From assembly GCA_963971405.1 (NCBI GenBank), contig OZ020488.1, positions 31,267,089 through 31,331,088 of the forward strand: a DNA stretch of 64,000 nt, given 5' to 3'. Each line of letters opens with the position of its first letter. The first letter of the stretch is position 1. The notes beneath the pieces were generated by a model that searched no databases, was not told the origin of the DNA, and saw only the letters and a list, made by a program, of their open reading frames with translations. The stretch is from Psococerastis gibbosa (taxonomy: Eukaryota > Arthropoda > Insecta > Psocodea > Psocidae). Made by a program: the position numbers and the translations under genes. Positions 1 to 31,600 of the stretch are shown here, in pieces.

Positions 1-211
1 GACCAGGTCGATCTGATTGACTTGCCATTGAAGGACATGATAGCGTTGGGCTTTGCTATCAATGTTAAGCTGCTGTTTTTCGACAGTTTATTAATTGGCA
101 ATGAATGATTGGGACGTGATCCCATTTAAAAAAAAAAAAAAAAAAAAAATGCTGTTCAAATAAGGGTCCCAAGACTGAAGACAGCTAAATTTAAGTAAGC
201 TCAACTGTCTA

Positions 212-247
<36 letters not shown>

Positions 248-853
248 TACTGTTGGGTGCCCATTGTTAAAAAATAACTTTGTATAGTTTTACAAAAGAC
301 TATTAGTTTTATACTGCTGGGTGGGTAACGAGTCTTCTTATATTAAAAGTTCAGAATTCCTGTTATATAGTCACCCCATCATCTTGTTGAACAAATTGAA
401 CGCTTCGCCGCCTCAGAAAAGAATTTGCATTACTCGTATGTGTGTAATAAATTGTTCCTTACAAATCTATCCTTTGTTGTGGAAACAGTGGACCACACCT
501 AAACCGTTCGCGTCTGGTGTTGTGGTAAATGGTTCCTGAACAACCATGCAGTAAGAGGATAAAGGGGGTCACGGTTTGCTACTCTTTGATACATCAAAAA
601 TCTTGCAGTACGATACTTAACGAAGCATACTTCCAGCGGACGAATTACGGGGTTCCAGTCATAGGTACGGTAACACCTACTCGACCTATGACGTACCCCC
701 AGTGATCTCATCCAGCTATGCTTGTGATGTCATTGTTGTTTTCATTGGACGATATTGACTGTCCTCCTATTCGTGGATTGTTTGCTGGCAATGCTCAAAT
801 AACCAGTGACCTGTCATGGTTGGAATGCATATTGTGTAGGCCAGCGGTCCCCA
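1..853. other. Non-coding, with microsatellites
   Basis: Contains an A run (127-149) and a TAA/AAT trinucleotide repeat (about 212-247). A 35-codon open frame touches the left edge and ends with TGA at 106-108; I do not recognise it. No gene is supported here. Confidence 0.5.
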
Positions 854-1038
854 CAGGGACGGATCCTTGGGGGGCGGTCGCCACCACCCCCCCCCCCCCC
901 ACCCAGAGAGAAATAGCTTTTTACTAGATAGAATGGAATTTTGATGGAAGTTAAAAAAAATTATTACTCAAGTAAATGAAACGCGATATTTTTCAGGCCA
1001 CCCCCCCCCCCCGAAAACTTTTTCTGTAACCGTCCCTG
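854..1038. mobile_element. hAT-like MITE 1 (185 bp)
   Basis: Ends CAGGGACGG...CCGTCCCTG, flanked by a perfect 8-bp duplication GGTCCCCA at 846-853 and 1039-1046. C-runs of 10-14 bases lie near both ends. Length, inverted ends and 8-bp duplication fit a non-autonomous hAT element. Confidence 0.8.
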
Positions 1039-1189
1039 GGTCCCCACCCTATGATTTTCGTGGGTCCCAAAAACTTGGAGTTTTTCTTAGAGTCTCTAAG
1101 TTACGCATGCAATTATTTATTTACTTGTCCCATGTCTGTAGTTTGGCCGGTAGTGTATATATATATATATATTTATATTTTTTTTCTTT

Positions 1190-1352
1190 TTAATAAAAGC
1201 ATGTAAACAATTTAATGAATGTATCCGATTGACCTCTTCAGTCGCCTCTGTAGGTTAGTACCAATGTTGAGGCACGACACGTCTCCGATCGCATGGCTTT
1301 TAGAGACTCGCACAAGTACAAGCAAGCTACCACCTTGCTATCGTAGTCGATG
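1190..1352 (+). repeat. Repeat family C, copy 1
   Basis: Begins TAATAAAAGCATGTAAACAA and continues through CCTCTTCAGTCGCCTCTGTA and CTCGCACAAGTACAAG. Similar copies at 14321-14490 (+), 54157-54293 (-) and 57958-58035 (+, short). Class unknown; possibly a SINE. Confidence 0.7.
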
Positions 1353-1459
1353 TCTAACCCGCAGGTCTTGTTTTTAGGGCCCATTAAACTCCAACGTACT
1401 TGGCGTTTATTATTATTTTATTATATTATTCGGCTAGTTTCCATGCTGCACTACCTACA

Positions 1460-1642
1460 CAAGGGCGGATTTTAGGGGGTGCAGAGGGTCCGGACCCCCC
1501 CCCCCCCAAATAAATTAACTTACACTATAGATAACAATGGGTTTACAGTGGGAATTAAATATCATGTTTTTTAATGTTACAATCCACTGAACCTGCCCGC
1601 TGACCCCCCCCCCCCCTAAATTGGAGGAAAAATCCGCCCTTG
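1460..1642. mobile_element. hAT-like MITE 2 (183 bp)
   Basis: Ends CAAGGGCGGATTTT...AAAATCCGCCCTTG (one internal A differs), flanked by TACCTACA (1452-1459) and TACCTAAA (1643-1650), an 8-bp duplication with one mismatch. C-runs of about 14 bases occur near both ends. Confidence 0.8.
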
Positions 1643-1932
1643 TACCTAAATTGTATTGGCCGCTGCCCGCTGGCATTCACCCGCATTAGTCCCAGTAAAC
1701 AGTGGGCAGAAGCACTCGAGAACTCATGTATCGTTGTATTGAGGAATGCAAATAATCTTATGTTTGTAGAAATACGTCTATCGTAAGTTAAATATCGAAA
1801 TATCGTAGATGCAGAAATCTATTGCTGCGCATTTCAACAAGCTATAAATACTCGTATGTAATAGGAACATAGTCCACATAAGAAATGTAAATTGTACGCC
1901 GTAAAACTGATACGTTTCGTACCTATTGCCTT

Positions 1933-2209
1933 GTCGGCCGCCATACCAAGTTGAATCTAGCGGACCAGAGCAGGTTCAAAGCTGCAGATAACTTGGTCGT
2001 GTGCACAGTGCCAGTAGGGAAACATGGTAGGACTTGTCCTGGTCACCTTCGAACTAATCGTGTGACTTCACTGTGTTTCCCAAGTGGTTCGGAATCCACT
2101 ATAATCAGGAGGTCCACTGTCCTATGGGCTGGCATAGGACAGTCAAGTCGGGGTCGCTCTATAGGCCCAAATATGAGGCCTAAGTCGTTATTAACCCGAC
2201 GAACACTAC
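1933..2209 (+). mobile_element. SINE family A, copy 1
   Basis: Flanked by a perfect 13-bp duplication TACCTATTGCCTT (1920-1932, 2210-2222). It begins GTCGGCCGCCATACCAAGTT and ends in an (ACT)n tail. A possible pol III B-box (GGTTCAAAGCT) is near 1972. Other copies at 19037-19324 (-), 38397-38610 (-, degraded) and 50286-50528 (+). Confidence 0.8.
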
Positions 2210-3018
2210 TACCTATTGCCTTCTGGGCAAAACGATAGAGCAGTCGGCGAAACTGCCAGCTTATGTTTCTAAATTCTACTGATGATAACTAATTTTTATA
2301 TAGCATCCAAACTGCTCATATATACAATAGTAGTAAGGTAAGTTATATCAAGTAGGTACCAAAAATATATGATTCGACTGAGTTGGCTAAAATAATTGGC
2401 CTATATTGATTTCATCACCATATGGGTCTAACGGTATGGCACTCGAACGCGTGGGTAGCCAGTAGGTGTAGGTCAATAAGCTCTTATAAGGCCTAAACTT
2501 TTAGTACGGTAATAACCTAATACTCAGGCGGTTATACTGTATATTTTCAGAACTAACGTAGTGACATAGTCTAGGTATACGTAATACTAAAAAGAACCGA
2601 TTTTATTTTAAATAATTATATACTGTATGTAAACTGAGTCACCATATATCTGTTTCAACCAATCCCGAAGCGAAGGCCTAGCCTACTTGCATTCAAACAG
2701 GTTCGGACCTTGAAAAAATCTCAGGTGGGAGAGATAGTTCGCAGGGACGGACTGGTCCGATACTCGTTCCTATTCTTCCATAGTGGGGCTGAATTTCGAC
2801 AATTTTTCCCTAGGCTGTTGGCCTACAGACTTTAACAACGAATCTTTTGCTATGATAGCTCTGTTGACCTGTAACTTCGGCAACCAGTAAAGCAATTTAT
2901 TTATTTATGAACAAGAAGGCCTAAGTTGCAATTTCCCAATAAAAATACGAAAAGAGACTTCAACTTTAATACAATTATATATTAATAAGTAAATATATCA
3001 ATAATGACTATTTATTAT

Positions 3019-3118
3019 ATTACTAAGCCAACCTAGCGAAGAAGGCCCGGGACCGCCTGTTTTACATGCAAAATGTAGGAAGTGTGGGACTCCAACAACC
3101 TTTCAGGTTCTCAAAAAG
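3019..3118 (-). mobile_element. SINE family T fragment (tRNA-related)
   Basis: Shares ACTAAGCCAACCTAGCG, AAGGCCCGGGACCGCCTG and GTGTGGGACT with the fuller copy at 4147-4368, with internal deletions. Confidence 0.6.
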
Positions 3119-4117
3119 TAGCTTATTTCCCCGATCGACTTCAATCAAATCGGTGTAATGCACCTTATCGGGATTGTCAGAAGTAAAAACATTTTAGACG
3201 GTAAAATATTTCTATAGAATGCTTCCTTTTTTTATATCTTAATTAATAATAAAAAAACCGTCCCTTGGTAATTTCATTTGTTTATCCAAAATATCTTTAA
3301 GTCCCTCCCTGAAGCAGCGGTCTGTTTTGGTGTCCTATGATCAGCCCTTCATTAATCATTATAGCTAGCTACTGAGAACTGAGTAAAGTAATAAAGTATC
3401 ACATAACCCATCACACTCCCTCCCCAAAATTATCCAGCGATGATGCATATAATTTGAGAATTGAGAAAAGAAGTCTGCTATAGGACTGTTTTCCGGGCCA
3501 GGGTATGCTGAATATTGAATATCAGATCGTATAATTTCAGAGGGATGACATGTACAATATAAAATTAATGCCTCCAGCAGCAAAGCACAAGGCACCCCTT
3601 GTTGGAGGGTCACAACGCCATCTGCTCAGTGCTTATGGACCATATTGCGCTCTGCCCATCTAGATTGTTAATAAATCTTGATCCGGCCCTGTTGGCTTGG
3701 CATCCATAGATGGATTGTTCAGTGTGGCAGGCCGTGCCCGCTTGCCCATTCCAGACCTGCCATGCTAGTTGCCTCATCGGTTTATTTAGTTGTGCGGCTT
3801 GTGCCCGTATTGGGATAGTTGGGTGCAGTGAACGCTACGCTTTTCTATTTCAACGTGCTTGTGTACAAGTGGGTTCGTAATGCATGTAATGTGATTTTTT
3901 TTTTCATTTTCTTTCAATCACAAATAAGGCAAGTATCAATTTTATGATGTATTATATACAATAGCTGCTAATTTTATTTTTCTGTGGTAAAGGCTAGGTA
4001 CTTTATATAAACTTGACAAACTTGCCTATTTTTATATGCGTACATATATCGTGGAACATAAATATAGTTTGATCCAAAAAAAAATAATGAAAGTCCAATC
4101 TATTCAGTGTTCAAACT

Positions 4118-4433
4118 CAAATAAATTTATTTAAATTCTTCAAACAATAATAAATAAATAAGGACTTTTTATTGTTTCTATTACTAAGCCAACCTAGCGG
4201 AGTTAGGGCTATAAAGGCCTCTCTTACACTCAACTAGGAAGGCCCGGGACCGCCTGCTTTACATGCCCTCCGAAGCATGGCCAGAAAATGTAGCCAGTGT
4301 GGGACTCGAACCAACAACCTTTCGGGTGAAAGTCAGAGTCCGTACCACTACGCTACATGTCCTGACAATACAGGTTTACATAGAAAAAGTATTTGGGGGG
4401 GGGCGGGTGGTCCTGACCCCTGGGCACGGCCAT
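4118..4433. mobile_element. MITE fragment interrupted by a SINE
   Basis: Sequence on both sides of the SINE (AAATTCTTCAAAC to the left; ATACAGGTTTACATA, a G run and GGGCACGGCCATG to the right) matches the continuous interior and right end of the hAT-like MITE at 33305-33484. The left end is missing. Confidence 0.6.
4147..4368 (-). mobile_element. SINE family T, tRNA-derived, nearly full length
   Basis: Read on the minus strand it starts TAGCGTAGTGGTACGG (A-box-like), then has GGTTCGAGTCCCACA (a good pol III B-box). It then has a tRNA-unrelated body (GGCATGTAAAGCAGGCGGTC, TAACTCCGCTAGGTTGGC) and an AT-rich TTTATTTATTATTG tail. Fragments at 3019, 38005 and 59627. It is not a functional tRNA gene: the cloverleaf is not intact. 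Confidence 0.75.
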
Positions 4434-5099
4434 GGACTGGTTCCACCGTGATTAATTTTTATTTAGAGAACGACATGAAACGTATATTCTTGAAACAATG
4501 CATAGCTGGTATCATCCCTTATAAATAATACAGGATACTATTTTTTTTAAACCCAACTTTTGTGGCCATTTAACTATAGGAGGGGAAAAGCATTTGCATG
4601 AAAATAGGCTATAGTATGCATTTCAACAGAAAATGAACAATTTTTGCTCCAGTGGCGAATCCAGGGTTTTGCACTGTTTCAGAAACGAGCAACCTTGTCC
4701 GCTGTCGCTACTCGCATATTCATTGACTTATCTAACCGATTTTGAAAGCTAATAAATGGGCTATAAAATATATTATTTATTATTTTTCAATTATTTCGCT
4801 TGGGGTCAATTCTCCCCAACTCGTTTATTGGCTATCAAAAATGCTTCCTTGTGTCAATAAAATTTCAAAATTGTAAAATATTAGCTTCGTAGTCAATTTT
4901 ATTATCTCTCAAAATCAGTGGTTTAATGTGAAATCGGTTTGCTAGTTCGATGACAAGGTGCTCGTTTATGGAAAATATAGAGCAGAATCCTGGATTGACC
5001 ACTGGAGTGAAACCGTATATGTTTTCCTATTTTCAGCAATTATTAGTATATACTGTATAGGTACCGAGATAGATAATATGAGTAATTCCAAACGGGTAA

Positions 5100-5262
5100 A
5101 AATACTCCCGAGATAAGATGTTTTTGAACCTGGATGCCATACTTCATCAAAATCCACCGAATCGTTTGCCCACAAATCGAGGAACAGATAATATAGACAT
5201 TTCGTAAAAACGAAATCTCTAATTTGAAAATGTCGACCATCACAAAGTTTTCCTTATATAGG
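5100..5262 (-). repeat. Repeat family B fragment
   Basis: Shares CATCAAAATC, GTTTGCCCACAAATCGA, ACATTTCGTAAAAACGA and GACCATCACAAAG with the copy at 52826-53674, with an internal deletion. Confidence 0.6.
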
Positions 5263-5423
5263 CCTATTATATATAGTACTTATACTATACCTAAGTAAAT
5301 AGGAAAGCTATTAAATTTGAGCGAACTCGTTAGCTATGGCAGCTGCATAATACGGTGTGAAGAATTTAAGCCCCAAACATCACACAAGATATCGCAGTAG
5401 GCTACAATAGGTATCCCTATAAG

Positions 5424-5679
5424 CAGGGCCGGTTTCACCAGGCGCGGGGCCTGTGGTGGTTCCATGGCGCGGGGCCCCTGCCTTAAGATACTGTATATTG
5501 TCTCGGGTAAGCCGGTGGGGGGGGGGGGGGGTTAAACTGTCAACAATGTAGCCACGTCACTCATGGACGAATTTAGTCCTTATTTTCAGTAACTTAAAAA
5601 AATATATTATTATTAAAAATTGTGCCAAGCGCGGGGCCTGTGTTTTTGTCACACTCGCCACATGGTAAAACCGGCTATA
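5424..5679. mobile_element. hAT-like MITE 3 (256 bp)
   Basis: Left end CAGGGCCGGTTTCACC pairs with right-side GGTAAAACCGGCTATA (outer bases decayed). A perfect 8-bp duplication CCTATAAG lies at 5416-5423 and 5680-5687. A G run lies at about 5517-5531, and GCGCGGGGCC recurs near both ends. Confidence 0.78.
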
Positions 5680-6684
5680 CCTATAAGCCTTGAGAGAAAT
5701 GATGGCTCTAGACTTAGTTCTTAGGGGCCAGGGCAGAGCAATAGAGATGGTGGTCACGGATTGGCTCACCTGGCCATCATCCATGCAATTGTTCCAGCAA
5801 TCCAGGACTCCAGGTAGACCAAACAACCTATAGCCTACCCACCAATATAGAACGCCAGACCCATCCTTTTATTCACATTTAAAATAATTACAATAAAGGA
5901 ATTATGTTGGTATTGTTTTTTTTAAATTAAAATATTTGTTTCTATAATTTAACATCTGCAGGAAGACATCAATATCGCCCCTTTTTTGTAAATTTCTCAT
6001 CAATTAGTGATTGTAATGTAACCTCAATTCTATGGAAAGAGGGCCGTTCGTATTTTGTAGGCCCTCCTATCCGGGCTATCGCAATCTACCGCGTAGGCAC
6101 TTCCTTTGTTCCTCGATCTCATCTTTCTTCATAGTTCATCCAGAATGCTGGGTCTTCCAGGTCCAACATTCCAATGCCTGCTTCCAAATTACTCTCCAGT
6201 TACGCCTCTCCCATATCTTCCGGCTGAAATGAAGTCTTTTTATACCTTAATGAGATTTCGAATTCGATGCAATTGTGTTGCCTCTTTTCTTATCTAAACT
6301 TATATACAGGGTTAGGTATGCGCAAAATCAGTTCCATAAGGTTGGTAGTGCTGTTGACACAATTTTAACGGGGAGCTTGGAAATTTCCTGCTTCGGTCAT
6401 TGACCCTACAGTGCAACAGGTGGCTTCAGATTTTCCCAAGGGCTGTTATTTTCATTCCCTCTAAAAATATGGCCTAATCCTCATTTCTGCTTTTTACCCT
6501 TAGTCTGTAGGTACCTAACTCAAGTCTAAACGTGGCCTATTTTTTGTGGGGGATGTATTTAGGCTTCTTTATACAAGTTACATGTCATGTAGTAATTTAA
6601 TGGGAACCGCGTCTTCTTGCTCCCCTTGTAAAATGTAACAATGAACAAACCAATAGTTTATATTACTATTATTTTTTTTTTTAG

Positions 6685-6923
6685 GTTGAACGATGGCAGA
6701 TGTTGTGGCCTACAAAAATTTCACCCCTGACTACTGCAACCCTGGACTGTTTCTCCCACTTCTTGACGAAGGGGGTTGGAACAGACCTCTGCGTGCATTC
6801 ATCTACTTCATAGCCCTCTTGTACTCCTTTGTAGGAGTCTCTGTCGTCACAGATGTCTTCATGTCAGCAGTTGTGGCTATTACCAGTCAAACCAGAAAAG
6901 TATATCTGGCAAGAACGAAAAAG
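6685..6923 (+). CDS. Calx: NCX exon 1 (coding from 6693)
   Basis: Preceded by a T-rich tract and TAG acceptor at 6682-6684, so at least one upstream 5'UTR exon is expected. Eight UTR bases, with an in-frame TGA, precede ATG at 6693. It encodes aa 1-77: the extracellular N-terminus with a CNPG motif, the first membrane helix ([20 protein letters not shown]) and ITSQ, as in the family. Donor AAG|GTAAAT at 6924. Confidence 0.88.
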
Positions 6924-9900
6924 GTAAATCATATTGCTGAGCTAATGCGTCAGCAACTGCTTTATACCTAAAGCAGTGGTAAAATTGACATTGTATTGTG
7001 TTTTAGCCCTTTTCAACAGAGAGACATTATACAATACCATATCGTTTCATGTAATTTTATTATTATTATTATCATTTATTATTATTATCAATTAACTTTT
7101 TCTGAGTCTGAATTAAGAGCTAGTTATAAATTCTAATGCGTGTAAAGTTGCCTGCGAAGAGAAAAAATTGCAATTTTCAAAGTTGGGCGTTATTATAACT
7201 TTTGAGTACTGTTACCTCAATTTAGCTCAATTATGCTGTACATCCATTTGCAAGTGTCCATGTTAAATGAATGTGCCGTTTGTTTTACAGAACGGAAGTT
7301 ATAGCTCTGTGGGAGGCGTAGTTGCAGGGCTACGAGAAGATGAACCTGAAGTGATTGAAGTCCAAGTATGGAATGATACCGTTGCAAATTTGACTTTAAT
7401 GGCGCTTGGGACTAGTGCTCCTGAGATCTTGCTCGCCTGCATCGAAATCATCGGCCACAACTTTACATCAGGAGCTCTGGGGCCTGGCACCATCGTGGGC
7501 TCAGCGGCTTACAATTTATTCATTATTACCGCAGTCTGCATAGCAATCATACCCGCGGGTGAATCCCGCCGAATTCGCCTTTTTAAGGTGGGTGCAATGT
7601 ATATGCTTTAACCTACTCACATTTGTCCAATTTAAAGCCAGCAACCTTTTGACTGCGAGTGAGTTTGTGCAGTCTGAATCATGTTGTCCGAAAGTAACTC
7701 TATAAAGACTTTGCTGTCAATGCAGTAGAGTTTTATACTTTTATAGGCCTAGTTAAATTTGTAAATTATTAGTCATCTACAAACACCATTGTAAGAGGAC
7801 ATGAAAATTTTGATTTCTCACATCTCTGAGCTTTGATTTACAATTACTAAAATCCTTGATCGTTGACATTGTTGTTTCAGGTATTCATCGTAAACACAGC
7901 CTTCAGCATTCTAGCGTATATCTGGATGTTTTTAGTGGTGAGCGTTAATACCCCCGACGTTGTGGACGTATGGGAGGCAGTAGTGACGTTGCTGTTATTC
8001 CCTGTGCTTGTGTTTGTTGCCTTCAGCGTTGACAAAGGATGGTGCGGGCTAAAAACTTTTCAGCGCAATAAAAACAAGCGACAAATGGAGCTAGGATCAA
8101 TGCGCCCAGAAGAGAGTGAGTAGGCTACTTTACACCTTCATCGCGATATTCTACTATAATACCACTTACAGCTTTTTTTTAAAGTCTAGCTTTTTAGACA
8201 ATCTGGATGGAATTCTGGATGGACTAACGTAAACGTATCTAAGTAGAAAGTCACCATTTGTTTCAATTCTGTCTCTCTCAGCAACTCATTAGCTGCTACC
8301 GACGTGAGGGCTTAGGTAGGCTAGTTAAATTCGAAGATAGGTATGCCTGTGGCATACTTCCGTTTGCAGTCCGATAGTACAACTGCCTAGTATTCAGGCT
8401 TATCTCCAATAATTAATTTTAAGGATTGTATCAAAATTTCCTCTTGATTATATACTTTTAGTTTGGCCTACATTTTTCTTGTTTTCCACTAGAAAACCAT
8501 TTTATTTGGCCGGTAAAATTGATCTCTAAGAAGAGTGATCATGATCTAGGTACTAATTTGACCCCATTCCAGTGAATGATACGGCGATGCTGCTTTGTTT
8601 CAGATGAAAAGATGTTAATTGAGAAGAAATTCTTCAAAGACGGCAAAGTAGACAAGGAAAATTTGGTTGCCTTTGTTAGAGAAGTGAAAAAATATCCCGG
8701 ATTGTCTAGCGAAGATGCGGCTCTTCTTGCAGCTTCTAAGTATGTTTGTTATAACTTCATAATTTATGGAAATTTTTCCTCTTTTACTGTTGGTTTGTCT
8801 ATCAGAGAAGATATTGTATTATCATTGAATTGTAGGCTATGAAACATGTCCAAAATGTTGTGATGTAGATCTTTGCTCCGTACTTCGTTTTAGTAACCCG
8901 TTAGCTCTTTTCATTAAAATGCGTCAACACTCCGCCGAATCTTTAACAAATATATTTTCTATGTTATGGCAGGATTGCGGATGCACAGCCACATACCCGG
9001 ATGCACTATCGTATTGGCGCCGTTCGTGACATGACTGCAAGCCGCAAACTGAAACCTCAGCTTTCTCTCAAATTAAAAGAAGTCTATGACACTATCAATG
9101 AACACCCGGGAGCCCCAAACATTGGAGAGCCTCCATTGAAATTCGAAGACGCCCACGCTGTTGTGGAATTTCATTCCGCTACTTGCGCCGTTCGCGAGAA
9201 TATTGGCTCATTTCCTGTCACTATTTGGCGTCATGGGAACCTCGAACCTGTTGTGAAAATAAGGTATTCACTCAATGAAGTCTATATGCTATGGTTACAT
9301 AATAGCCTAATCCATAAATAACCCATATTCTCCAGAAGATTTGGCACATTAGATAATCCTTGAATGCAGGGTACCAACCTCGATATACTACTATATATAT
9401 ACATACCTATAATGAAGTAGGATGGGAATGAATTTGTATTATCAGGTACGGTACCTAATCATTGCAAACTGCTATACTTCCAGGGTTGTGAGCGTAGATG
9501 GGTCTGCGAATTCTAAAGAAGACTACGTACCTGTCGATGAAGTCATAACATTTCAGTCTGGCGAGCGAGAGAAAAAAATTACAGTAAAAATCATAGACGA
9601 CAACAAATGGGAACCAGAGGAAGAATTTTTCCTGAAATTGATGTTATTGAACGATGAAGACGAAGAAAAGAAAGATATTATTCAGCTGGGAAAGATTAAC
9701 ATTTTGGAAATCACCATTATTGATGATGATAGTGGGTTCTTTTTCTTTAAGCTACTATAGATTTTGTAGGCCTATAATAAAATTATTGGACTAAGATAGG
9801 CCCACTTGAAGTAAAGAAGGTTATTCATATTTCACCCTACTTGTTGATATGGGCTGTACAGCCCGACTCTTTTTAGAACTGAAGGGTTTGAATTAATTTT

Positions 9901-12073
9901 ACCATACAGGCGTACTGCAATCTATCGACGAACCCAAACTTGCATGACAAAGCCATCTATTCAAATGACTTGATTTCATTTCAGACCCTGGTATTGTATT
10001 CTTTGAAAAGAGAGGCCTTCTAGTGAAGGAAAGTGCTGGGAGAATTGATATTCATGTAATTCGAAGAGGCGGTTCTGATGGAGAGGTCACTGTTCAGTGG
10101 CGTACAATAAATAAGACTGCTGTTTCTGGCCGAGATTACATTGGAGGCTCAGGAGAACTTGTGTTTGGACACTTGGAAGTTCGACAGGTAGGTGAAGTCT
10201 GATAGTTTCAATTTGTGATCATTAACGCTACGTTTTACTTGTGTAACGTGCATGTTCTATATTCATTTCAGATTCTTTCAATTCCGATTATTGACGATCT
10301 TCGCCCTGAGCGAGATGAGCATTTTGAAGTTGAACTCTTCGCTGCCACTGGGGGAGCTCGCGTTGGGAATATCAATAGGGTTGCAGTTACTATCACCAAT
10401 GACGACGGTTGGTGCTTTCTTAGCAGTCATTAACAAAATATCATACAATGCTAGTGAAGGATTCCTTTCTTAATTTATTCCAGTGGCTTTATTCGAGGAA
10501 GCCATGACAGAAATCTGGAAATTGAACATTACCGGGGCTTCACGTTTAAAACATGGATTGACAACATGAACGTACAATATAGGTTATATGTAAGACGATC
10601 AACTTGCACACTAGTGCCCAGGACAGAGTTGCGTACCGTAGTATCAGCACTGCCGTGCCCGATCCATAACTGTTTTTCCCTGTAATGTATGCATCATATC
10701 CTGCGTTTTTCTTGGTCAGGATTTAAATCGAATAATCTACCTTACTTGATCAAAATCAATAATATTCTCATTGTTTTGGAAATTATCCTAGCAAATAGAT
10801 GCAATTATTTAACTGTTCTGAAAGCCGACTTCTATGGTTTAATTCATCATGTCATAGGCCTTCAAGAGCGGATACAGCCCATAGCCCTTGTTGGCAAAAC
10901 TAATCACACTTACCTATGTGGTTTCAGCATTCAATAACATTGTAGAGAAAATGCTTGTTCTAACGAAAACCAACGTGGACGCTATTGCTGTTCATCGTAA
11001 CACGTGGATTGGCCAAATGAGGGACGCTCTCAGTGTCAACGGGGGTGATCTGGAAAACGCATCCTGCATCGACTACATTCTCCACCTCCTGGCATTTAAC
11101 TGGAAGGTCATCTTCTCTCTAATTCCACCTCCTTCTCTCTGCGGCGGTTGGGTCTGCTTTTTTGTTTCCCTCGCTTGTGTTGGTATCGTCACTGCCATCA
11201 TTGGAGATATTGCCACAATTTTTGGATGTACTGTTGGATTTTCAGACACTGTCACTGGTAAGTTACTCCTTCTCTATCTTCTCTAAAGGTAGCTATATAA
11301 TACAGTGAGTAAATGAAAGGTTAATTAGAAGACAATGCCATCGCTACTCATTTTTTTTCAGTAGCCGTAGCAGTGTTTTCAAAAATTGCATAGCCAGCTT
11401 ATTACCTACTACAGACACTCTGCTTCTTGTTTTAGCCATCACAATCGTTGCTGTGGGCACTTCTCTTCCGGATACATTCGCCAGTATGACTGCCGCAAAG
11501 ACTGAAAAGCACGCCGATAACGCGATTGGCAACATCACTGGTAGTAACTCGGTCAATGTGTTTCTTGGATTGGGACTTCCATGGGTGATGGCTGCTATAT
11601 ATCATGCTTCAAAGGTATGTCGAGTTTTCTTTAACAAAATCACATTTCGCAGGAAATAGGTCTATCTATTTTAGAACTATCAAAAATGTCCCTTAGAAGT
11701 AGGCTACCTACTCCCCAAGACTGAATTTTAAGAAGAGTTGCAGCTTTTATTTATTTAATGATGCTACCATCGACAAGTGGAAACTTTGGGGTGGACGTGC
11801 TATTGTATTTTTTGTGGAATAACTTGTTTTGTTTAATATATTCTCCTAACTAGTGGAGTAACCAGTTAGGGAAAAAATAAGAAGAAAACATTGATTAGCG
11901 CTGAAGTCACCTGCGGTCTTGAGCATGAATACTTGGCGATGAGCATCATCCTCTGGAATCATGTACCATAATAACTGATTGTGTGTTCAATTCTCTCTCT
12001 GACCAGCTTCATTTAATTTACTTTTTCCGATAGGCGATAATATGTGTACAAATGTGTATGTATAGATGCTGTA

Positions 12074-12105
<32 letters not shown>

Positions 12106-15100
12106 CAGGGAACTCAATTCGATGTGCCTGCAGGATCTCTGGCGTTCAGTGTAATGCTGTTCACTGTTTCAGCAGCTGCGGCCGTAACATTGCTTCTCCT
12201 TCGCCGATATGTTCCCTTATTCGGAGGCGCTGAACTTGGAGGTCCTCCTGTTGCCCGTTATGTGTCTGTGACTTTCTTTATTATTTTGTGGGTTCTTTAT
12301 ATTACGGTATCTGCCCTCCAAGATGCTAAAGTTATTCAGGTATCTTTTTAATTAAAATATAAGTAGCCTAACGGCATTAATAATGCTGTTTTAAAAGAAT
12401 TATTAATCTAATAGATTAATATATTGCTTTCCAATTTATACGTAGTATAAGGAAAGCTTTGTGATGGTCGAAATTTTGGATTCCGAGATTTCAACGGATT
12501 TACACGTTTTGAGGTCCCAGGAACCAAAAAAAGTGGTTTTTACGAAATGTCTGTCTGTCTGTCTGTCTGTATGTCTATTCATCGATTAACGGGCAAACTA
12601 CTCGGCCGATTAGGATGAAATTTTTCATGTAGGTTCACAAAAATCATACCTCGGGACCGTTTATTTTTTTTATTTTGGGCTAACTCAATTTGGGGGGTTT
12701 TATTCTCAAAAAACTCCGAAAAAAACGTCTAAAAAAATTATTTCTGAAAAACGGCTAGAACGATTTCTTTTAAATGCACATATATTGTAGTCGTTATTGA
12801 TGTTGACAAAATGCGGGGGGTCGCTTGCCCCTTGATAGTTTACTTCTGCGGGTAAAAAAATAAAAATAACTCAATTTTCATGAAAAATGACTAAAAAATA
12901 ATTTTTCTGCGACACCTTTCTATCGATGATTTCTACCTTCAGGCATATTTTAGGTGTTAAATTGAGTAATTGCTTACCCAAAATATTATTTGGTTTTGTG
13001 CAAAAAAATTTTTTTTTTTTTGAAAAATGATAGAAATTTACGCTCAAATTCATTGCGTGCCCTGCCATTATTGCTGGGTGGTATTGCGTTGGTCTGACCT
13101 ATCTAGAATTTACCTCACCTCTAGTGACGTCAGCTGGACAAACCTCCTCTCTCTGCCCCCCCCCCCCCCCCCCCCCGAGATATCGGAAATTTAACCATAG
13201 GAAAATGATTTACCATGAAATTATTCATTTTCCCTATCTACTAATTTTGATAAATTGGAAAGCATGTTCGAGTAGAGTACACTCGGACCGGTTCTTTATA
13301 AATGTAGCCCTATCTAGACGAGATTATGTCTACTTAATCTAAGTTAAATTTTATAATTTTTTAACATATTTATTCAATATTTAGTACTGCAGACTGATTT
13401 TGTTTAGTAGATAGGAATTTTTCTCTAAATTTAGTAGGTCAATATGTAACCCAATGTTGAGTGACTTTCACAAATAGGCCTATCTATTGAACCTTTTTTG
13501 CATTATTATTTCTTGTAGTACGACCACTTAGATATTTTTTAGTCATAATTAATCATGATTTTATACAATACTCTATTAGTGCAGTACTGTTAAGTTATCA
13601 TCCAATAGCCCTCTGCATATTTGACTTCCTCGAGGATTAACAGTTTGACACCTAAAGGCGGTTTCCATCATCCCTTGAAAAGTCTCGGAAATGAATACTG
13701 TACGGCACTGTCATACATTGGGATATAAGGGCGCCGTCCATTATTCCTTGACTCCACTTTTCAAGCTATGTAGGGACCCCTCCTTAGTTCGAAATAGAAA
13801 AGGTAGCTGGTAAATAGGTTTCTTTTCAAGGCTATAATAGAGCTAAGATTTTCTCATCTTACCCCTAAGGAGAGTCGGGCTATATTGACAAGATGTTGGT
13901 CCAAATTATTACAGCATCAATTAAACTAAGTTAGAGTACTCGTATATTTTCAAAAAGGTTCTGAATTTCTGTAAAGTTCTTCTCCTGGTTAAAACTATGG
14001 GGTGGGATAAAACCTATATCGGTACTATGCTAAATACAGCTCATTCATTTCATTGCAGTTAGCCTACCTACATATTTTATTTAAATTCAATATACTGTAG
14101 GTACCTTAGATATAGTAATTAGTTACTCTTCCGATTTTATGAAGTCGATGGATTAGGATAGGCCAGTCCAAATTTTGCAGAGGTCGTTTAAACTTTCTAG
14201 GCTTGGCCTGCCCTACCTAGACTTATGTAGGCTACTATCATGTTCGCACTTTTGACTATTTATTCGTCAACTACTAGTATTATAATTTATATCAGTCTGA
14301 TAATTGGTCCATTTTTTTTTAAATAAAAGGTTAATCGCATGTAAACAATTAAATGAATGTATTCCATTGATCTCTTCAATCGCCTCTGTAGGTTAGGACC
14401 CATGTTACTTTACGACATCTTTCCGATCGCATGGCGTGTTGGCTCGCACAAGTACAAGTACACTACCGCCTTGGGACCCAAGTCGATAGTATCGAAGCCG
14501 ATATTATGACTATAAGTTAATTAATAGGCCTAAGCTATTGCAATATTGACTTACCATCCACGTCTTTTGTGAATATCTGCCCAATCGCCCAAAGTTGCTG
14601 ACTGTAAGCAGTGACGGCGGGTGTTTTCATGCTGAACACACATTTGCTGAAATTGCTCACGTTCTTTCCAACCGACTGCTGTGTAGTAAATGTCAGGGGT
14701 GGGCCCGCAAGTCCGATGATCGTGGCCAAACCGACCATTGCAAAGAGTGTGGCAAACAACACAACAAATTCACGCTTGTGCATCGCATAAAGACGCATAT
14801 GGACTGAACGTTCACATCGGTCATGATGGTAAGCAGGGGCTATGTATTTATTGAACTCACTAAACATATCGCTAAATTGGGCAAAAGCGTTTCTGACTTT
14901 TAGGCGCAGGCCACCCGAAGGAAGGTGATAGGAGTATCCCAAATTCACATCTTCTTTAGCCGACATTGTCTGATAGCCTATACTCACCAAACTTCTGCAT
15001 GAATATTAACCGATCAATGGAGCCTTGCGGCGCATGACTCAACATTGACTGACTGACTCTACCCGCTAGGTATAGGTGTACCCTCTTATTTTTAGTGCGG

Positions 15101-18100
15101 GAAACCCGACAGTAGATATTTTCTAAATACCGCAAACTGCTAACTACATTACAATAATAATATTTTTTAACTTGTTTTGAGGAAAGCTGCGTTATAGGTA
15201 AGTTATAATCAAAATGTAATAGGCCCATGGAGTATCCATTGTAATGTAATTAAACTCAACCTTCTGTATTCTACCAGAGATACATGTGAAATATCTTATG
15301 AAGTGACTTTTACCACTTAAGTTTGAAACTATTAAAGCGAGCCATATTTAACATGCAATGGAAAGGTAATAACTAATAATAGAAATACTTGCTGAAACTA
15401 TTTAAACTAACTAAAAATAGCGGGAATATTTTTATTTTGGATTTGTTTTGTTGGTCAAATTGCAGTTATGGCCGCCGGGAGTCGAAATATTTGGAAGCAG
15501 GAATTTCCTTGTTTTGGAATTATTTTAATTGAGTTTTTATATGTTCTTTAAGTAATATTGGTAAGTAATTATTCAATCAATTTCATATTGTTATTACGCA
15601 TTGAAGAAATGAATGGTAGTAGCTATGATATATTATAAACTTGTTGCAAGCACAACTACGCCCTAGTACCCTGTTCAGTTCTTATTGATATTATCATTAG
15701 TGATAAATTGATATTCCATAAGGTTTTGCTATCTATGTAATTTAATAAAGCTACAACTAGGCCTAAATTATTATAAAATGAAACTTTATATTATATCTTC
15801 GTAACGGGTTTATGTCCATGTTGTAATCATAAACCTTGAATCAGTTTCACAAAAATGAAGATAATTTGTGTATTGTAAGCCAATTGCTTTCAAAAACTCG
15901 GTCCTCCTGTCCTGCATTGCATTGCAACCGAGAGAACTACTGCTTTATTCTTTTTTTTTGTTGCGAAAATGTACTTGTGCAAGGTGACTTGTAAACTCCA
16001 TGGGGACCCAGAAAAATAATTGGAATTCAGATCCTCTACTTGCTCGGTGCTTGGGCTAGAGGTGCAGTGTGTAAGGCAATTTTAGACTGTCGTTAGGCCA
16101 ACTTAGTACTGACTGCAGATTTAATAATAAAACAGCAAAATATGGACTTCGAACCCCAGTACAGTGGTCAATTAAAGAAATAAAATACTATTGACTTACT
16201 CAGTCACATTGATAAGGAAAGTGTATTTGGATATCACGATAACAATAAAACAACTACAATGAAGTAAGTTAGGGGGATTAACCCTCGAGCTAACATTACG
16301 AGATAACTTCACTGTCATGCTTACGTTTAAGTGATGGTAGAAGAGAATCTTAAGAGGATATGTCACTTAGAAAATTTGCCCCCCAAAATTAAATACTTTT
16401 CATTTTTTATTTAATTAACTCAGCAAGTTATTAAAAATTTGGATCATCTAAGTTGTGGAAGACTACTTCGTGCATCATATAATCGGGTATTTTTACTTTT
16501 CGATTTTGTACTTCCTCCAAAAATCCCAGAATACGCGTAATCTTAGTCCGTTCTGGTATTTATGAAAGAACTAAGGTACTAAAAATTTAAAATGTCCTAT
16601 TAAATGATGCATGAAGCAGTCTTCTACAACTTCCATGAGCCAAGTCTTTAATGACTTGCTTTGTTAATGAAATAAATATCAATAAAAACAACAAATTTTG
16701 GGGTGCTCATTTTCTACGTTGCATATCCTCTTAATTGAAAACAATATTGTGTATTAACTTAAGAGCCTTAAATAATAATAAATAAATAAATAAAATAAAA
16801 ATTATTAACTGTGAAAGATACGTTTAACCCTTTCTTACCTCTAACTTTTACTTTAAAATTGGTGGGTTGAACATAACAAAATTGAAGACTATTAGTCGCT
16901 AATTCCAGGCTCATTTTTTAAGGGGGGGGGGGGTTGTAATGTAACATGTTTTTTCTTATTTATATATTTATTCTTATTTCTGGTAGCATGCAACTTTCCA
17001 AATTTTGACATGTTAAATAAGCTGGGCCATTAAGACGTATACCTTTGAATTCAAATGTACGCTAACAGGGGTTAAAAACCCCTCCCAAGTGTCAAGAAAC
17101 TAAAACGATTTTTGCTAACACCACGTTAACGGAGGGTCGAGATTCAAAGCTTGACATAAAAGGAAAGACTTCCCGCCTGGCCTAGGTCCACTCGACCCTA
17201 GTGGGTACATTAATCCGTAGAGGAAAAACTCAGCTGCCGGCATGTTGCTACCTGCTGATCACAACAACCCGAATAGAGCAGTGGTCCATAGAGAGGATCC
17301 TTTCACAGGGGATCCTTTTCAGAGAGGATAAGTTTCACAGGACTTGTACGAAGGAAACACTTTGCCCAATGTAAACACGGAATGACAAGATTAACCTGTT
17401 TATTTTGTGATTGACCTGCTCCTGCACCCGCTTGCTATAAAAGGGCCCTTAGGGGTCCAAATTAATATTATCTTACGGTTAGTGAGGTACATCCTCCAAA
17501 CGAAAGACTCCTCCTATTCAAGTCCATGTTAACCAAATATCCTCCCAAAATAGTTTCGCATTACGATGTTGTTGCTTTCCAATCAATACGTAGTAGGTAT
17601 AAGGAAAGCTTTATGACGGTCAAAATGTTCGACTCTGAGATTTCAACGGATTTACACGTTTTGAGGTCCCAGGAACCCAAAAAAGTGTTGTTTTACGAAA
17701 TGTCTGTCGCTCTGACTGACTGTGTTCATCGATTTACGGGCAAACTACTCGGTCGATTTTGATGAAATTTGGCATGTAGGCTCACAAAAATCAAGCCTCG
17801 GGACCATTTTTTTATATTTTGGGCTAACTCAATTTGGGGGGGTTTTATTCTCAAAAAACTAAAAAAAAAGTCTAAAAAACTTATTTCTCAAAGACGGCTC
17901 CAACGATTTCTTTTAAGTTCACACATATTGTAGTCGTTATTAATGTTAACAAAATGCGGTGGGTCGTTTGCCCCTTGATAGTTTGCTTCTGGGGGTAAAA
18001 AAATAAAAATAACTCAATTTTCATTAAAAATTAATAAAAAATAATTTTTCTGTGGAACCTTTCTATCGATGATTTCTACCTTCAAGTATGTTTTCGGTGT

Positions 18101-18576
18101 TTAATAAAGTAACAAAACGAAACAGGTTGCTTTCCCAAAAAAAATGTTTGGTTCTGTACAAAAAAATTATTTTTTGAAGAAATTATGGAAAATTCACGCT
18201 CCAGTACATTGCGTACCCTGTCATTGTTACTACTGTTACAATGTATTGGTCTGTTTGTTCCAGAATATACCATTGAGTTTTAAGGGGGTTTTGATATATT
18301 GAGGTGGACCCGAAATTTAAATCACAATATACTGTATTGTCAGATATACACTCACACAAATTCATTTCATACAGTGTTTCTGGATATAATCTGTGTTATC
18401 TAAGATATTTCTGGCTCTTATGTTATTTTACGGACCCCCTGCCCCCTCTCTTATCTCTTATCTTATAGGATAGAATTATTGGTGTCAGTCCTTCTATTAC
18501 CATCATTGCTATTTTAAATGCATTTATAGTGTATGCATTGTACATGGCTCGAAAACAGAAAGAGAAAGTTATTTAA
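6693..18576 (+). CDS. Calx: Na+/Ca2+ exchanger (NCX/Calx), complete, 12 coding exons
   Basis: Plasma-membrane antiporter of the SLC8 family, which extrudes Ca2+ in exchange for Na+. Coding exons: 6693-6923, 7291-7587, 7881-8115, 8604-8739, 8973-9263, 9484-9731, 9985-10187, 10272-10407, 10928-11257, 11436-11614, 12109-12339, 18469-18576. Phases agree at every junction and the sum is 875 codons including TAA (874 aa; family usual about 900-970). Domains in order: N-terminal membrane segments with alpha-1 repeat ([14 protein letters not shown], about 113-126); regulatory loop from about 240; Calx-beta domains CBD1 (about 330-479) and CBD2 (about 480-592), each ending in an acidic DDD/NDD calcium-site motif; alpha-2 repeat ([12 protein letters not shown], about 708-719); final membrane helices and a basic tail. 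An in-frame TGA at 6687-6689 supports the ATG. No cleavable signal peptide is evident. A polyadenylation signal AATAAA lies at 18625-18630. Exon coordinates were read by eye from splice sites and homology. Confidence 0.93.
7291..7587 (+). CDS. Calx: NCX exon 2, alpha-1 repeat
   Basis: Acceptor TTTTACAG and donor AAG|GTGGGT; 99 codons, phase 0 at both ends. It carries the ion-binding alpha-1 core with GTSAPE (vertebrate NCX has GSSAPE here) and [14 protein letters not shown]. The loop before the [14 protein letters not shown] motif is acidic. Confidence 0.93.
7881..8115 (+). CDS. Calx: NCX exon 3, membrane helices and start of cytoplasmic loop
   Basis: Acceptor GTTTCAG and donor GAGA|GTGAGT. 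It encodes two hydrophobic helices ([19 protein letters not shown] and the [12 protein letters not shown] stretch), then a basic stretch ([11 protein letters not shown]) at the start of the large regulatory loop, where the inhibitory XIP segment lies in family members. Confidence 0.9.
8604..8739 (+). CDS. Calx: NCX exon 4, regulatory loop
   Basis: Acceptor TGTTTCAG and donor CTAA|GTATGT. It encodes a charged helical loop segment (about aa 255-299) containing [21 protein letters not shown]. Phases match exon 3 (one base carried in) and exon 5 (two bases carried out). Confidence 0.85.
8973..9263 (+). CDS. Calx: NCX exon 5, loop and start of CBD1
   Basis: Acceptor TATGGCAG and donor AATAAG|GTATTC. 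It encodes the [16 protein letters not shown] segment, which precedes CBD1 in family members, then the first CBD1 strands ([32 protein letters not shown]). Confidence 0.88.
9484..9731 (+). CDS. Calx: NCX exon 6, rest of CBD1
   Basis: Acceptor CTTCCAG and donor GATA|GTGGGT. It encodes the second half of the first Calx-beta domain: [22 protein letters not shown], the [17 protein letters not shown] calcium-site helix and terminal TIIDDD. Confidence 0.9.
9985..10187 (+). CDS. Calx: NCX exon 7, first half of CBD2
   Basis: Acceptor ATTTCAG and donor GACAG|GTAGGT. It starts [19 protein letters not shown], the typical opening of the second Calx-beta domain, and continues through [11 protein letters not shown]. 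No duplicated or mutually exclusive copy of this exon is visible nearby. Confidence 0.9.
10272..10407 (+). CDS. Calx: NCX exon 8, second half of CBD2
   Basis: Acceptor ATTTCAG. It encodes [20 protein letters not shown] and ends VAVTITNDD. The donor is weak (GACGACG|GTTGGT), but joining it to exon 9 restores the family pattern DDAFNNIV in phase. Intron 7 before it is only 84 bp. Confidence 0.85.
10928..11257 (+). CDS. Calx: NCX exon 9, end of loop and C-terminal membrane helices
   Basis: Acceptor GGTTTCAG and donor CACTG|GTAAGT. It encodes the end of the regulatory loop ([37 protein letters not shown]), then membrane segments with [20 protein letters not shown] and [18 protein letters not shown] leading to alpha-2. 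Confidence 0.93.
11436..11614 (+). CDS. Calx: NCX exon 10, alpha-2 repeat
   Basis: Acceptor TTGTTTTAG and donor TCAAAG|GTATGT. It encodes the second ion-coordinating repeat ([20 protein letters not shown]), then [20 protein letters not shown] and [13 protein letters not shown], the most conserved part of the family. Confidence 0.95.
12109..12339 (+). CDS. Calx: NCX exon 11, penultimate membrane helices
   Basis: Preceded by an unbroken T tract of about 28 bases and CAG, an extreme polypyrimidine tract. It encodes [40 protein letters not shown] and a further helix. Donor TTCAG|GTATCT, phase 0. Confidence 0.92.
12425..13295 (+). repeat. Repeat family B, copy 1 (about 870 bp)
   Basis: Starts TTGCTTTCCAATTTATACG and has TTTCAACGGATTTACACG and a GTCT microsatellite. 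A C run of about 20 bases lies near its end. It closes with ATAAATTGGAAAGCATGTTC, partly inverted to the start. Copies: 17572-18262 (+), 52826-53674 (-), fragments 5100-5262 and 41438-41675. No coding potential seen; probably a non-autonomous DNA element. Confidence 0.75.
14321..14490 (+). repeat. Repeat family C, copy 2
   Basis: Matches copy 1 through CATGTAAACAATTAAATGAA, TCGCCTCTGTAGGTTAG and GCTCGCACAAGTACAAG. It lies just downstream of the TMEM181 exon donor. Confidence 0.65.
14555..14966 (-). CDS. TMEM181: TMEM181 family protein, first coding exon (partial gene)
   Basis: TMEM181 is a multi-pass membrane protein. The exon reads from ATG at 14966 for 137 codons plus one base, to a canonical donor GATG|GTAAGT (GT at 14554-14553). 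Features: a soluble N-terminus with [35 protein letters not shown] leading into the first membrane helix (about 67-88, ending GLAGPP); then a lumenal region with KNVSNFSK and TAYSQQLW. The signature MRLYxxxKRxFV...GxxGP...YxQQLW is how I recognise the family (from memory, not a search). An acceptor-like CAG lies just before the ATG, so a 5'UTR exon may precede it. No further TMEM181 exon was found in the window; the rest would lie leftwards, antisense to NCX or beyond position 1. Confidence 0.72.
16354..16730. mobile_element. Fold-back element, family E copy 1, TTAA-flanked
   Basis: Arms of roughly 190 bp are inverted copies of each other: GAGGATATG, AATTAACTCAGCAAGTTATT and CATCTAAGTTGTGGAAGAC on the left, their complements on the right. 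TTAA lies at 16350-16353 and 16731-16734. Related copies at 35627-36001 and 39269-39772. Probably a piggyBac-type MITE by its TTAA target. Confidence 0.7.
17572..18262 (+). repeat. Repeat family B, copy 2
   Basis: Same orientation as copy 1 and in the same NCX intron, so the two flank TMEM181 exon 1 as direct repeats about 4.3 kb apart (end to start). It is about 180 bp shorter, missing the C-run end. Confidence 0.72.
18469..18576 (+). CDS. Calx: NCX exon 12, C-terminal helix and stop
   Basis: It lies 6.1 kb downstream of exon 11. Acceptor TCTTATAG, phase 0. It encodes 35 residues: [20 protein letters not shown], then a short helix end and the basic tail MARKQKEKV, with TAA at 18574-18576. 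The hydrophobic helix is what the family requires at this point. Confidence 0.8.
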   Translation, partial: DRIIGVSPSITIIAILNAFIVYALYMARKQKEKVI

Positions 18577-18624: not shown

Positions 18625-18630
18625 AATAAA
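18625..18630 (+). terminator. Probable NCX polyadenylation signal
   Basis: AATAAA lies 49 bases after the NCX stop codon, in an AT-rich 3' region. Position and sequence fit; the cleavage site is not determined. Confidence 0.55.
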
Positions 18631-28600: not shown

Positions 28601-31600
28601 GGCGTGAAGGTTAAGGGCAAACTGGAGTCGCTGATATTCCATTTCTGTGCAAACTTATTGCGATTCAGCATTTTTTCATTGTTCTGCGTTCCATATTTCA
28701 TGAGAAACTGAAATTTGAAAAGAAAATGGAATATGGGCGACTCCGGTTGGCCCTTAATGATTTTTTGATATGCAAGCTTTTCCTCCACGCCAAAACAATT
28801 TATTTATAATTTACACCCGATGCGGTTTGTTATATATATATTATTTTCAGCCTTTGATTTGAATTTGAAATTATGACAGGTTTTTGTGCCAAATATATTG
28901 ATTTAATGTGAATTTGTTAGGCCTACCATCGTATAACTAGCCGATGCCTACACGTTTAATAGTTCTTAGAGTGTGCATTAAATTTCATTTAGATATTAAA
29001 ATATCATCACAAACCATTTCGACCACCCAAAGCTGCATTTCCCTTTATTGCTGGCCACTAGAACAGCCACAATAAACCCTTCAACTTGAATGGAATAATA
29101 ATAGCATACTCTAGTTCTGTCATGAAATTCAGCTGAGCGTTAAAATGTTTTGTGCAATAGCATGTTGTGTGATCGCACTAATGTAGGCCACATATTTCCA
29201 TGCCTTTAAATTTGCTTTAGTCCCCACATGCCATGGGCGTCGACCTTTGGCTACTGTTGTTATTATAGAATGTTTGGGGGGGGGGGGGGGAAGTGTAAGT
29301 CTAGACTGACCCTTTGTAATAGTTCCCTTAGGACTTTATACGCTGTGACCTAATTCAGCAACTTGTTATCTTATGATCTCGACCTAGATGGGTTGATGTA
29401 AATACAATGATTAATTTTCAGTTTGCACTGACCAGCAGCTCGATCATGGCGATTTGGTATTATTGTAATACCGAGGTTTATATAATACCGGGGTTTATTT
29501 TTTAATAACGCAGTAGTAAGGTGTCACGTCGCGGTGTTAAAATATGCGCGGGAAATTCAAATTAATAAATTATTCGAATACATGAGAATGGTGGCATTGT
29601 TTAATAATTGAAGAAAATACTAATAAACATTAAAATTTACATGTATAATTTTGAAATATAATAGAACTTTAATGAATGTGCCAACATCTAAGGGAGAAAA
29701 AAATAAAACTCACCCAAAATATTAATTTATCAATTTGAATTTTCCGCGCATTTTGCACTCATTTGTTTAAATTTTAAAAAAATTAAAAAACCCCGGTATT
29801 ATAATAATCCAAAATCGCCATGATCGGGCTGCAGATGGTTGGAATCGAATCAGTTGTTTTTGCCGATTCTACATCAAGGCTCGCTGTATTTACTTAACAC
29901 TGTGCCGGCCGGAGAATCTGACCTACGTTAACGGCCGTCAGTGTCCATTGGACACTTATGGGATTTCCTATTGTCTTTTCACAAATATACTCAGTCCTGA
30001 TAGCTTTTTCCATTCATTTGATTGAATCTGTTAGGTAGGGGGTTGTTTTTTTATAAACAGACAATTTTATTTGTTTTTTTTAATTACAATTACAGCAAAT
30101 TACTGAGCTATGCTCTTTACATATATTTTTGCCCCATTTTTCGCAGCATGTTTTCGTGGTTCTCCCTAAGTTATTTGGGCAGACGGAACATCTTTTTTTT
30201 TTATTGGATCCTGACGTTTTTTCTGGGTTATCATCAGGGGCAACATCAGGTTGGGAACCATCCTGATGTCCAACCGCACCAATTCTCACATCCTGTTCTG
30301 AGCGTTCAGCCACCAGCCCGGCCAGTTGTTTTCCCAGCTGTATTAAGAACTTGCGTCTTTTCCCGCTTTTCCTTCCCAATTCATTTCCATGGGTGTATAA
30401 ATAGATAATGAAGGCATTGAGAGCGCTAACGTCCACCATGTTTGCGAAAACTACCATTGGCCAACGCCGTGTCTTCCTTTTTTACTGAGTAGTTCCTCAG
30501 TTTTTGATCTGCCCTAACTACCCCAGCTTTAGTTTCGTTATAGGTAATAATCAGATCCGGTTTTTCTCTCTCTGATGTGTCGGAGATTTCTGGCTTGTCG
30601 TGCAGTGTGCTGAGTAGAGTGACAACCTTGTTTTTTTTAGGGCAGTAAGAGGCAATCATCACGTCTTCTTGGAACAAAAATAAAGTAGAGTTTTCCGTTC
30701 TATATTTTGGATTAATGAATTCTAGAGGAAGCGCTCCTTCATTTTTTTTAATGGTCCCTACCAATGTCAAGTTTTTGGAAAGCAGGTAACGAGCTAGTGG
30801 TAGACTAGTAAAGAAATTGTCACAGGTGACGTTTCTTCCACTATTTTCAATTTCTGTTACCAAAGATCGTACAACGCGCTCGCCTTGATTTTTTTCTCTT
30901 GTGCCACCTGGCTCCTTCCCTGTATACACTTGTAATTTCCACACAAACCCATTTGCAGAGTCGCATATAGCCCAAAATTTTATTCCGAATTTCCCAGGCT
31001 TGGAAGGGATGTACTGTCGAAAAGCACATCGGCCTCTAAACGTAACCAACTGTTCATCCACAGTCATACTCCATCCTGGTACATAGGCTTCCTTTAGGTT
31101 TGCGTTCCAAGTATCAAAAATGTGTCTTATAGGCTCCAACTTATCGGGCGAGCGGTGTTTTCTCCTATTTTCTGCGTCATCAAATCTCAAAGCACGCGTT
31201 ATTTCTTTGAACCGATTGCGACTCATCACTTGTCTAAAAATTGGCCGACCACCATTAATTGAGTACATTTCGTCGATGTCTTCATTTTTCGCTTTATAGA
31301 CACCCATCAGGAGAAGTAAGCCTAAATACTTCTTGAACTCCTCTGCTGTCAACTTCTTCCAACCTTCACCAAGTGCTAATGTTCCTTCCTTATTGGTCCA
31401 CTTACAGATTTCTTCTATAAAAGATTGACGAAAAAATATAAAAAAAGCATCAGAAACTGTCTTGCATTGTCGCTCTGCCCATCTCTTTGGACCTGTAAAT
31501 AAAATAATAATAATAAAATAAAACAGTTATGTTTGCATACATTTTTTGTAAGCAATATTTCGCCACCTTTGTGTGATGGGCTTGTTCATTATACGGTATT

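Follow-up and report, generated by a model that had tools for sequence, protein, structure and literature searches.

A lone exon-like frame that resembles the start of the membrane protein gene TMEM181, lying on the minus strand beside a plus-strand Na+/Ca2+ exchanger (NCX) gene of Psococerastis gibbosa, raises the question of whether it belongs to an intact gene and how the two genes are then arranged with respect to each other. The stretch of DNA analysed, hereafter the window, comprises 64,000 nucleotides (contig C13:31267089-31331088) of a genome of 409 Mb in 68 contigs. The exon and its splice site are located as follows.

14555-14966, minus strand: coding part of TMEM181 exon 1, 412 bases (137 codons plus one base), encoding the N-terminus, the first membrane helix and, at its end, profile positions 3-26 of the GOLD domain
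14549-14554, minus strand: 5' splice site of TMEM181 intron 1 (GTAAGT), score 9.9

The first-pass annotation had taken this frame for a TMEM181 first exon, and the exon is real. The frame is open and initiated by an ATG, it ends at an ATG/GTAAGT donor whose score is equalled or exceeded by 0.27% of 3730 plus-strand GT sites, and human TMEM181 aligns with it at E 1.8e-8, residues 1-110 of the query reaching 47.8 bits as against a maximum of 26.6 among 300 shuffled queries. The human query was typed in after exon 1 had been viewed; hence, support independent of this query was needed. The Pfam profile TMEM181_GOLD matched exon 1 alone at E 0.011, under the curated cut-off (residues 111-134 of 137, profile positions 3-26), and since one of 119 other ORFs hit an unrelated family at E 0.0068, that match taken alone lies within chance and leaves the identity unsettled. 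As had also been noted at first pass, no following exon is visible in the window: the next matches of the human TMEM181 query had E values of at least 4.9, and none of the same 119 ORFs (minus strand, stop-free, at least 33 aa, positions 1-14554) matched the TMEM181 families at E <= 1.

Inspection of the assembly to the left of position 1, which the first-pass annotation had proposed as a check, uncovered TMEM181 exons 2 onward on the same contig and strand. Three Wntless-like (WLS-like_TM) exons occur on the minus strand of C13, 4.4-6.2 kb left of the window, and a tblastn comparison of this flank with the TMEM181 query yielded a collinear series of exons running from the N- to the C-terminus. 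Exon 1 ends in phase 1, whereas the first flank exon initially found starts in phase 2, a mismatch that predicted a missing exon between them. Fifteen candidate rows passed the filters for length, phase, open frame and splice sites; the exon chosen as exon 2 had an alignment score of 35 (two rows with differing acceptors), and the best candidate independent of it scored 20. One more missing exon was picked by eye among the open frames. The resulting gene has the following parts.

C13:31259713-31282054, minus strand: TMEM181 coding parts, nine exons
C13:31266297-31266399, minus strand: TMEM181 exon 2, in the phase demanded by exons 1 and 3, donor score 11.9
Window position 14554 to C13:31266400, minus strand: TMEM181 intron 1, 15,243 bp, of which positions 1-14554 lie in the window

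Joined together, the nine exons contain no stop and encode a predicted protein of 528 aa, 44% identical to the human TMEM181 query (209 of 477 columns). Both domains looked for in this family, the TMEM181-type GOLD and the WLS-like seven-helix domain, are present almost from end to end: TMEM181_GOLD (PF21885) at E 1.3e-32 (positions 3-111 of 111) and WLS-like_TM (PF06664) at E 1.1e-66 (positions 1-246 of 247). These Pfam scores are independent of the human query, and the whole spliced gene, as predicted, settles the identity of exon 1. The data thus support TMEM181 as an intact nine-exon gene in the form modelled here, its other exons lying just to the left of position 1 on the same contig. 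Exon 1 itself has a single match in the genome, so that the outcome that would have spoken against the earlier proposal, exons 2 onward elsewhere together with another exon 1, was not encountered. TMEM181 is described as a GOLD-domain seven-helix (GOST) protein (PMC9711517), and the domains predicted here from sequence are likewise a GOLD and a seven-helix domain. Further WLS-like_TM exons detected on contig C2 represent another gene.

The second gene of the pair was traced by segments similar to an NCX1 query sequence.

6693-12351, plus strand: NCX coding region, ATG at 6693, stop at 12349-12351
6732-6914, 7360-7590, 7878-8036, plus strand: segments similar to NCX1
8947-9240 (weak, E 0.20), 9497-9736, 9990-10181, plus strand: segments similar to NCX1
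10885-11256, 11435-11611, 12106-12321, plus strand: segments similar to NCX1
12109-12351, plus strand: last NCX coding exon, stop at 12349-12351, ending in KVIQVSF

The segments keep the order of the NCX1 query, and the features by which an NCX (SLC8) exchanger is recognized, two exchanger (alpha) repeats and Calx-beta domains, were all found. The first repeat matched PF01699 at E 4.5e-12 and solved NCX1 at E 1.3e-33, the second appears only as the similarity of 11435-11611 to the NCX1 query (E 2.8e-18), and Calx-beta (PF03160) was detected at E 9.7e-16; one alternative Calx-beta alignment crosses an intron, stops included. Pfam returned no match for 10885-11286 or 12109-12351. Directly before the ATG stands an acceptor-like TTTAG, so NCX may have an additional, untranslated exon to the left.

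Whether the two genes interlock depends on where NCX ends. The first-pass annotation had placed TMEM181 exon 1 inside an NCX intron 11, by a join of 12339 to 18469. The exon 12109-12351 aligns with the solved NCX1 chain 8jp0_A (937 aa) at E 4.8e-12, up to residue 929, 8 residues before the end of the chain, and the frame of the window, read straight on past the aligned part, runs for 9 residues to the stop at 12349-12351. A genome search with the same exon gave one other match, on contig C1, which belongs to a second NCX gene.

C1:45858472-45861675 (locus L011): NCX paralogue, last exon ending in KVIEGF

The paralogue C-terminus reads STLEVYKVIEGF before its stop, as compared with KVIQVSF in the window NCX. 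Because the C-terminus agrees with both 8jp0_A and the paralogue, the NCX protein most likely ends at 12351 on this comparison; TMEM181 exon 1 would then lie 2.2 kb past the NCX stop, with no intron 11 to contain it, and the span 12351-18576 is probably not exchanger. The splice signals say less. The GT at 12340 forms a usable donor (CAG/GTATCT, 5.6), and since the two donors inferred elsewhere in NCX are weaker (4.4 and 4.5), donor strength leaves a further exon possible. A stop within four codons past a GT occurs by chance at 21% of 3698 sites, and one exactly three codons past it, as at 12340, at 5%; hence donor strength at 12339 and the nearby stop are, alone, weak evidence on the end of NCX.

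Given an NCX end at 12351, the exchanger (6693-12351, plus) would fall whole within TMEM181 intron 1, from 14554 to C13:31266400 (minus), and the locus is very probably an ordinary opposite-strand nested pair, in which NCX occupies a 15.2 kb intron of an intact TMEM181. The in-frame nine-exon model agrees with the case considered at first pass, an intact TMEM181 whose transcript would run leftwards over NCX. Of the two-way interleaving proposed at first pass, one half holds, NCX within TMEM181 intron 1; the other, TMEM181 exon 1 within an NCX intron, lacks support, for by comparison of the C-termini no inner-gene intron appears to enclose the host exon. Accordingly, nesting of NCX in intron 1 is well supported, and interlocking of both genes is not supported. 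What the analysis shows is which exons TMEM181 contains, in what order and phases, and that they form an open frame, together with the C-terminus of NCX as judged by comparison.

The nested pair leaves a further segment to be accounted for.

18469-18576, plus strand: last-exon-like open frame of 35 codons plus stop, with one hydrophobic stretch and a K-x-K-x-x end

The K-x-K-x-x pattern is that of a retrieval motif. The stretch 18469-18573 is probably not NCX and may be a last exon from another gene or chance. A third, plus-strand gene that ends with this exon, possibly sharing the divergent start region of TMEM181, is a tentative reading that we consider somewhat doubtful. It would account for a strong acceptor at 18469 (17 of 20 pyrimidines, the most among 30 candidates), the hydrophobic stretch, the stop and an AATAAA at 18625, 49 bases beyond that stop; as one of 27 AATAAA or ATTAAA hexamers between 12340 and 19000, this last signal tells little. 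A comparison of the window with itself at E 1e-5 gave no second match to the candidate divergent region, 14489-16349. Weighing against a third gene, no family match above chance was obtained, the Pfam match of 18469-18573 to FeoB_associated (E 0.19) being at chance level, and the PDB gave no match for the segment. Nor did two-exon models provide a convincing partner: of five phase-0 candidates that combine a start codon with a donor scoring above 2, the one with the best donor (8.2) encodes no more than MYLCK before it. A last exon of VMA21 was also tried and rejected, human and fly VMA21 queries giving no match to the segment at E <= 50. A third gene here and the nested pair would be compatible.

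Considerably less probable is mutual interleaving itself, with NCX spliced from 12339 to 18469, perhaps in a minor isoform, and TMEM181 exon 1 within the last NCX intron. Such a join keeps the frame, and it would make use of the strong acceptor, the 35-codon frame with its hydrophobic stretch and stop, and the AATAAA at 18625. This signal, however, means little among 27 such hexamers, the 35 residues score at chance level in Pfam without a PDB match, the exchanger would gain a membrane helix and a K-x-K-x-x tail, and the C-terminus read through to 12351 agrees with the way in which two NCX proteins naturally end. Likewise, it is very unlikely that a fraction of NCX transcripts skips the stop at 12349 and splices to 18469, so that the exchanger would gain a helix at its C-terminus, followed by an ER-retrieval-like tail, and the genes would be interlocked; if true, the choice made at the NCX 3' end and the use of the TMEM181 promoter would be mutually exclusive. 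Finally, it is extremely improbable that the true TMEM181 first exon lies elsewhere and that the one seen here is a displaced or captured duplicate, or was joined to this place by an assembly error, for although interspersed repeats flank the region (12425-13295 and 17573-18253, with 14312-14488 just past the donor), exon 1 has its single match in 409 Mb here, it shares one 47-Mb contig with the remaining exons, and the phases demand the very link that exon 2 at C13:31266297-31266399 supplies.

In the nested pair, TMEM181 would be transcribed leftwards from a promoter to the right of 14966, and NCX on the other strand from a promoter of its own, within or near intron 1. NCX sequence would leave the TMEM181 pre-mRNA together with that intron. 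Since no coding exons overlap in the model, complementarity would be confined to NCX RNA and the unspliced intron 1 RNA of TMEM181; the coding exons give no reason to expect a stable duplex of the two mRNAs, but polymerases on the two strands might collide.

Genes within genes are common in animals, and NCX/TMEM181 would be a further example of opposite nested pairs, of which hundreds have been described. In Drosophila, about 6% of genes are nested according to PMC3786989, where expression correlation is given as not significant for 109 human and 752 Drosophila nested pairs. The same paper reports that 2mit lies in a timeless2 (timeout) intron, intron 11, in opposite orientation and with no functional relation evident, in every Drosophilidae species examined and in the honey bee (PMC3786989). 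As in NCX/TMEM181, a coding gene resides in one intron of its host on the opposite strand, although the genes are others. In C. elegans, ceh-10 lies within polq-1, its host, which it induced, and a survey in the same study covered 566 other pairs in opposite nested arrangement (PMC12274878). The opposite nested configuration is again shared; in the worm, the influence of the inner gene on the outer one was measured. A later RNA-seq study in Drosophila, as cited in PMC8467205, is said to have found that transcriptional interference drives expression divergence, while in mammals, as cited in the same place, divergence did not increase after nesting (PMC8467205). Reports on other nested pairs thus vary. 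A literature search on TMEM181 together with calcium exchanger and intron returned no report of the NCX/TMEM181 pair.

This locus provides a gene model for a seemingly orphan exon, whose next exon lies 15 kb off, behind another gene. In such an arrangement, TMEM181 may be broken up or missed by automatic annotation, or NCX wrongly extended.

Several other elements were recognized in the window. An interspersed repeat is present in three copies about 84-85% identical, at 12425-13295 (plus), 17573-18253 (plus) and 53674-52827 (minus), the first two of which flank the region of TMEM181 exon 1, and another interspersed repeat occupies 14312-14488, just beyond the exon 1 donor. A self-complementary (inverted-repeat) element at 16350-16734, with relatives at 35634-35984 and 39660-39773, is possibly a small DNA transposon. 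On the minus strand, an open frame at 30426-31526 encodes a DDE_Tnp_1_7 transposase domain (E 2.2e-78), a domain of the piggyBac type, and a retroelement fragment at 42526-43560 carries an RNase H domain (E 1.5e-18) and zf-RVT. On the plus strand, 36308-36835 is a probable exon of phosphatidylinositol 4-kinase beta (PI4KB-PIK1_PIK, E 1.3e-33).
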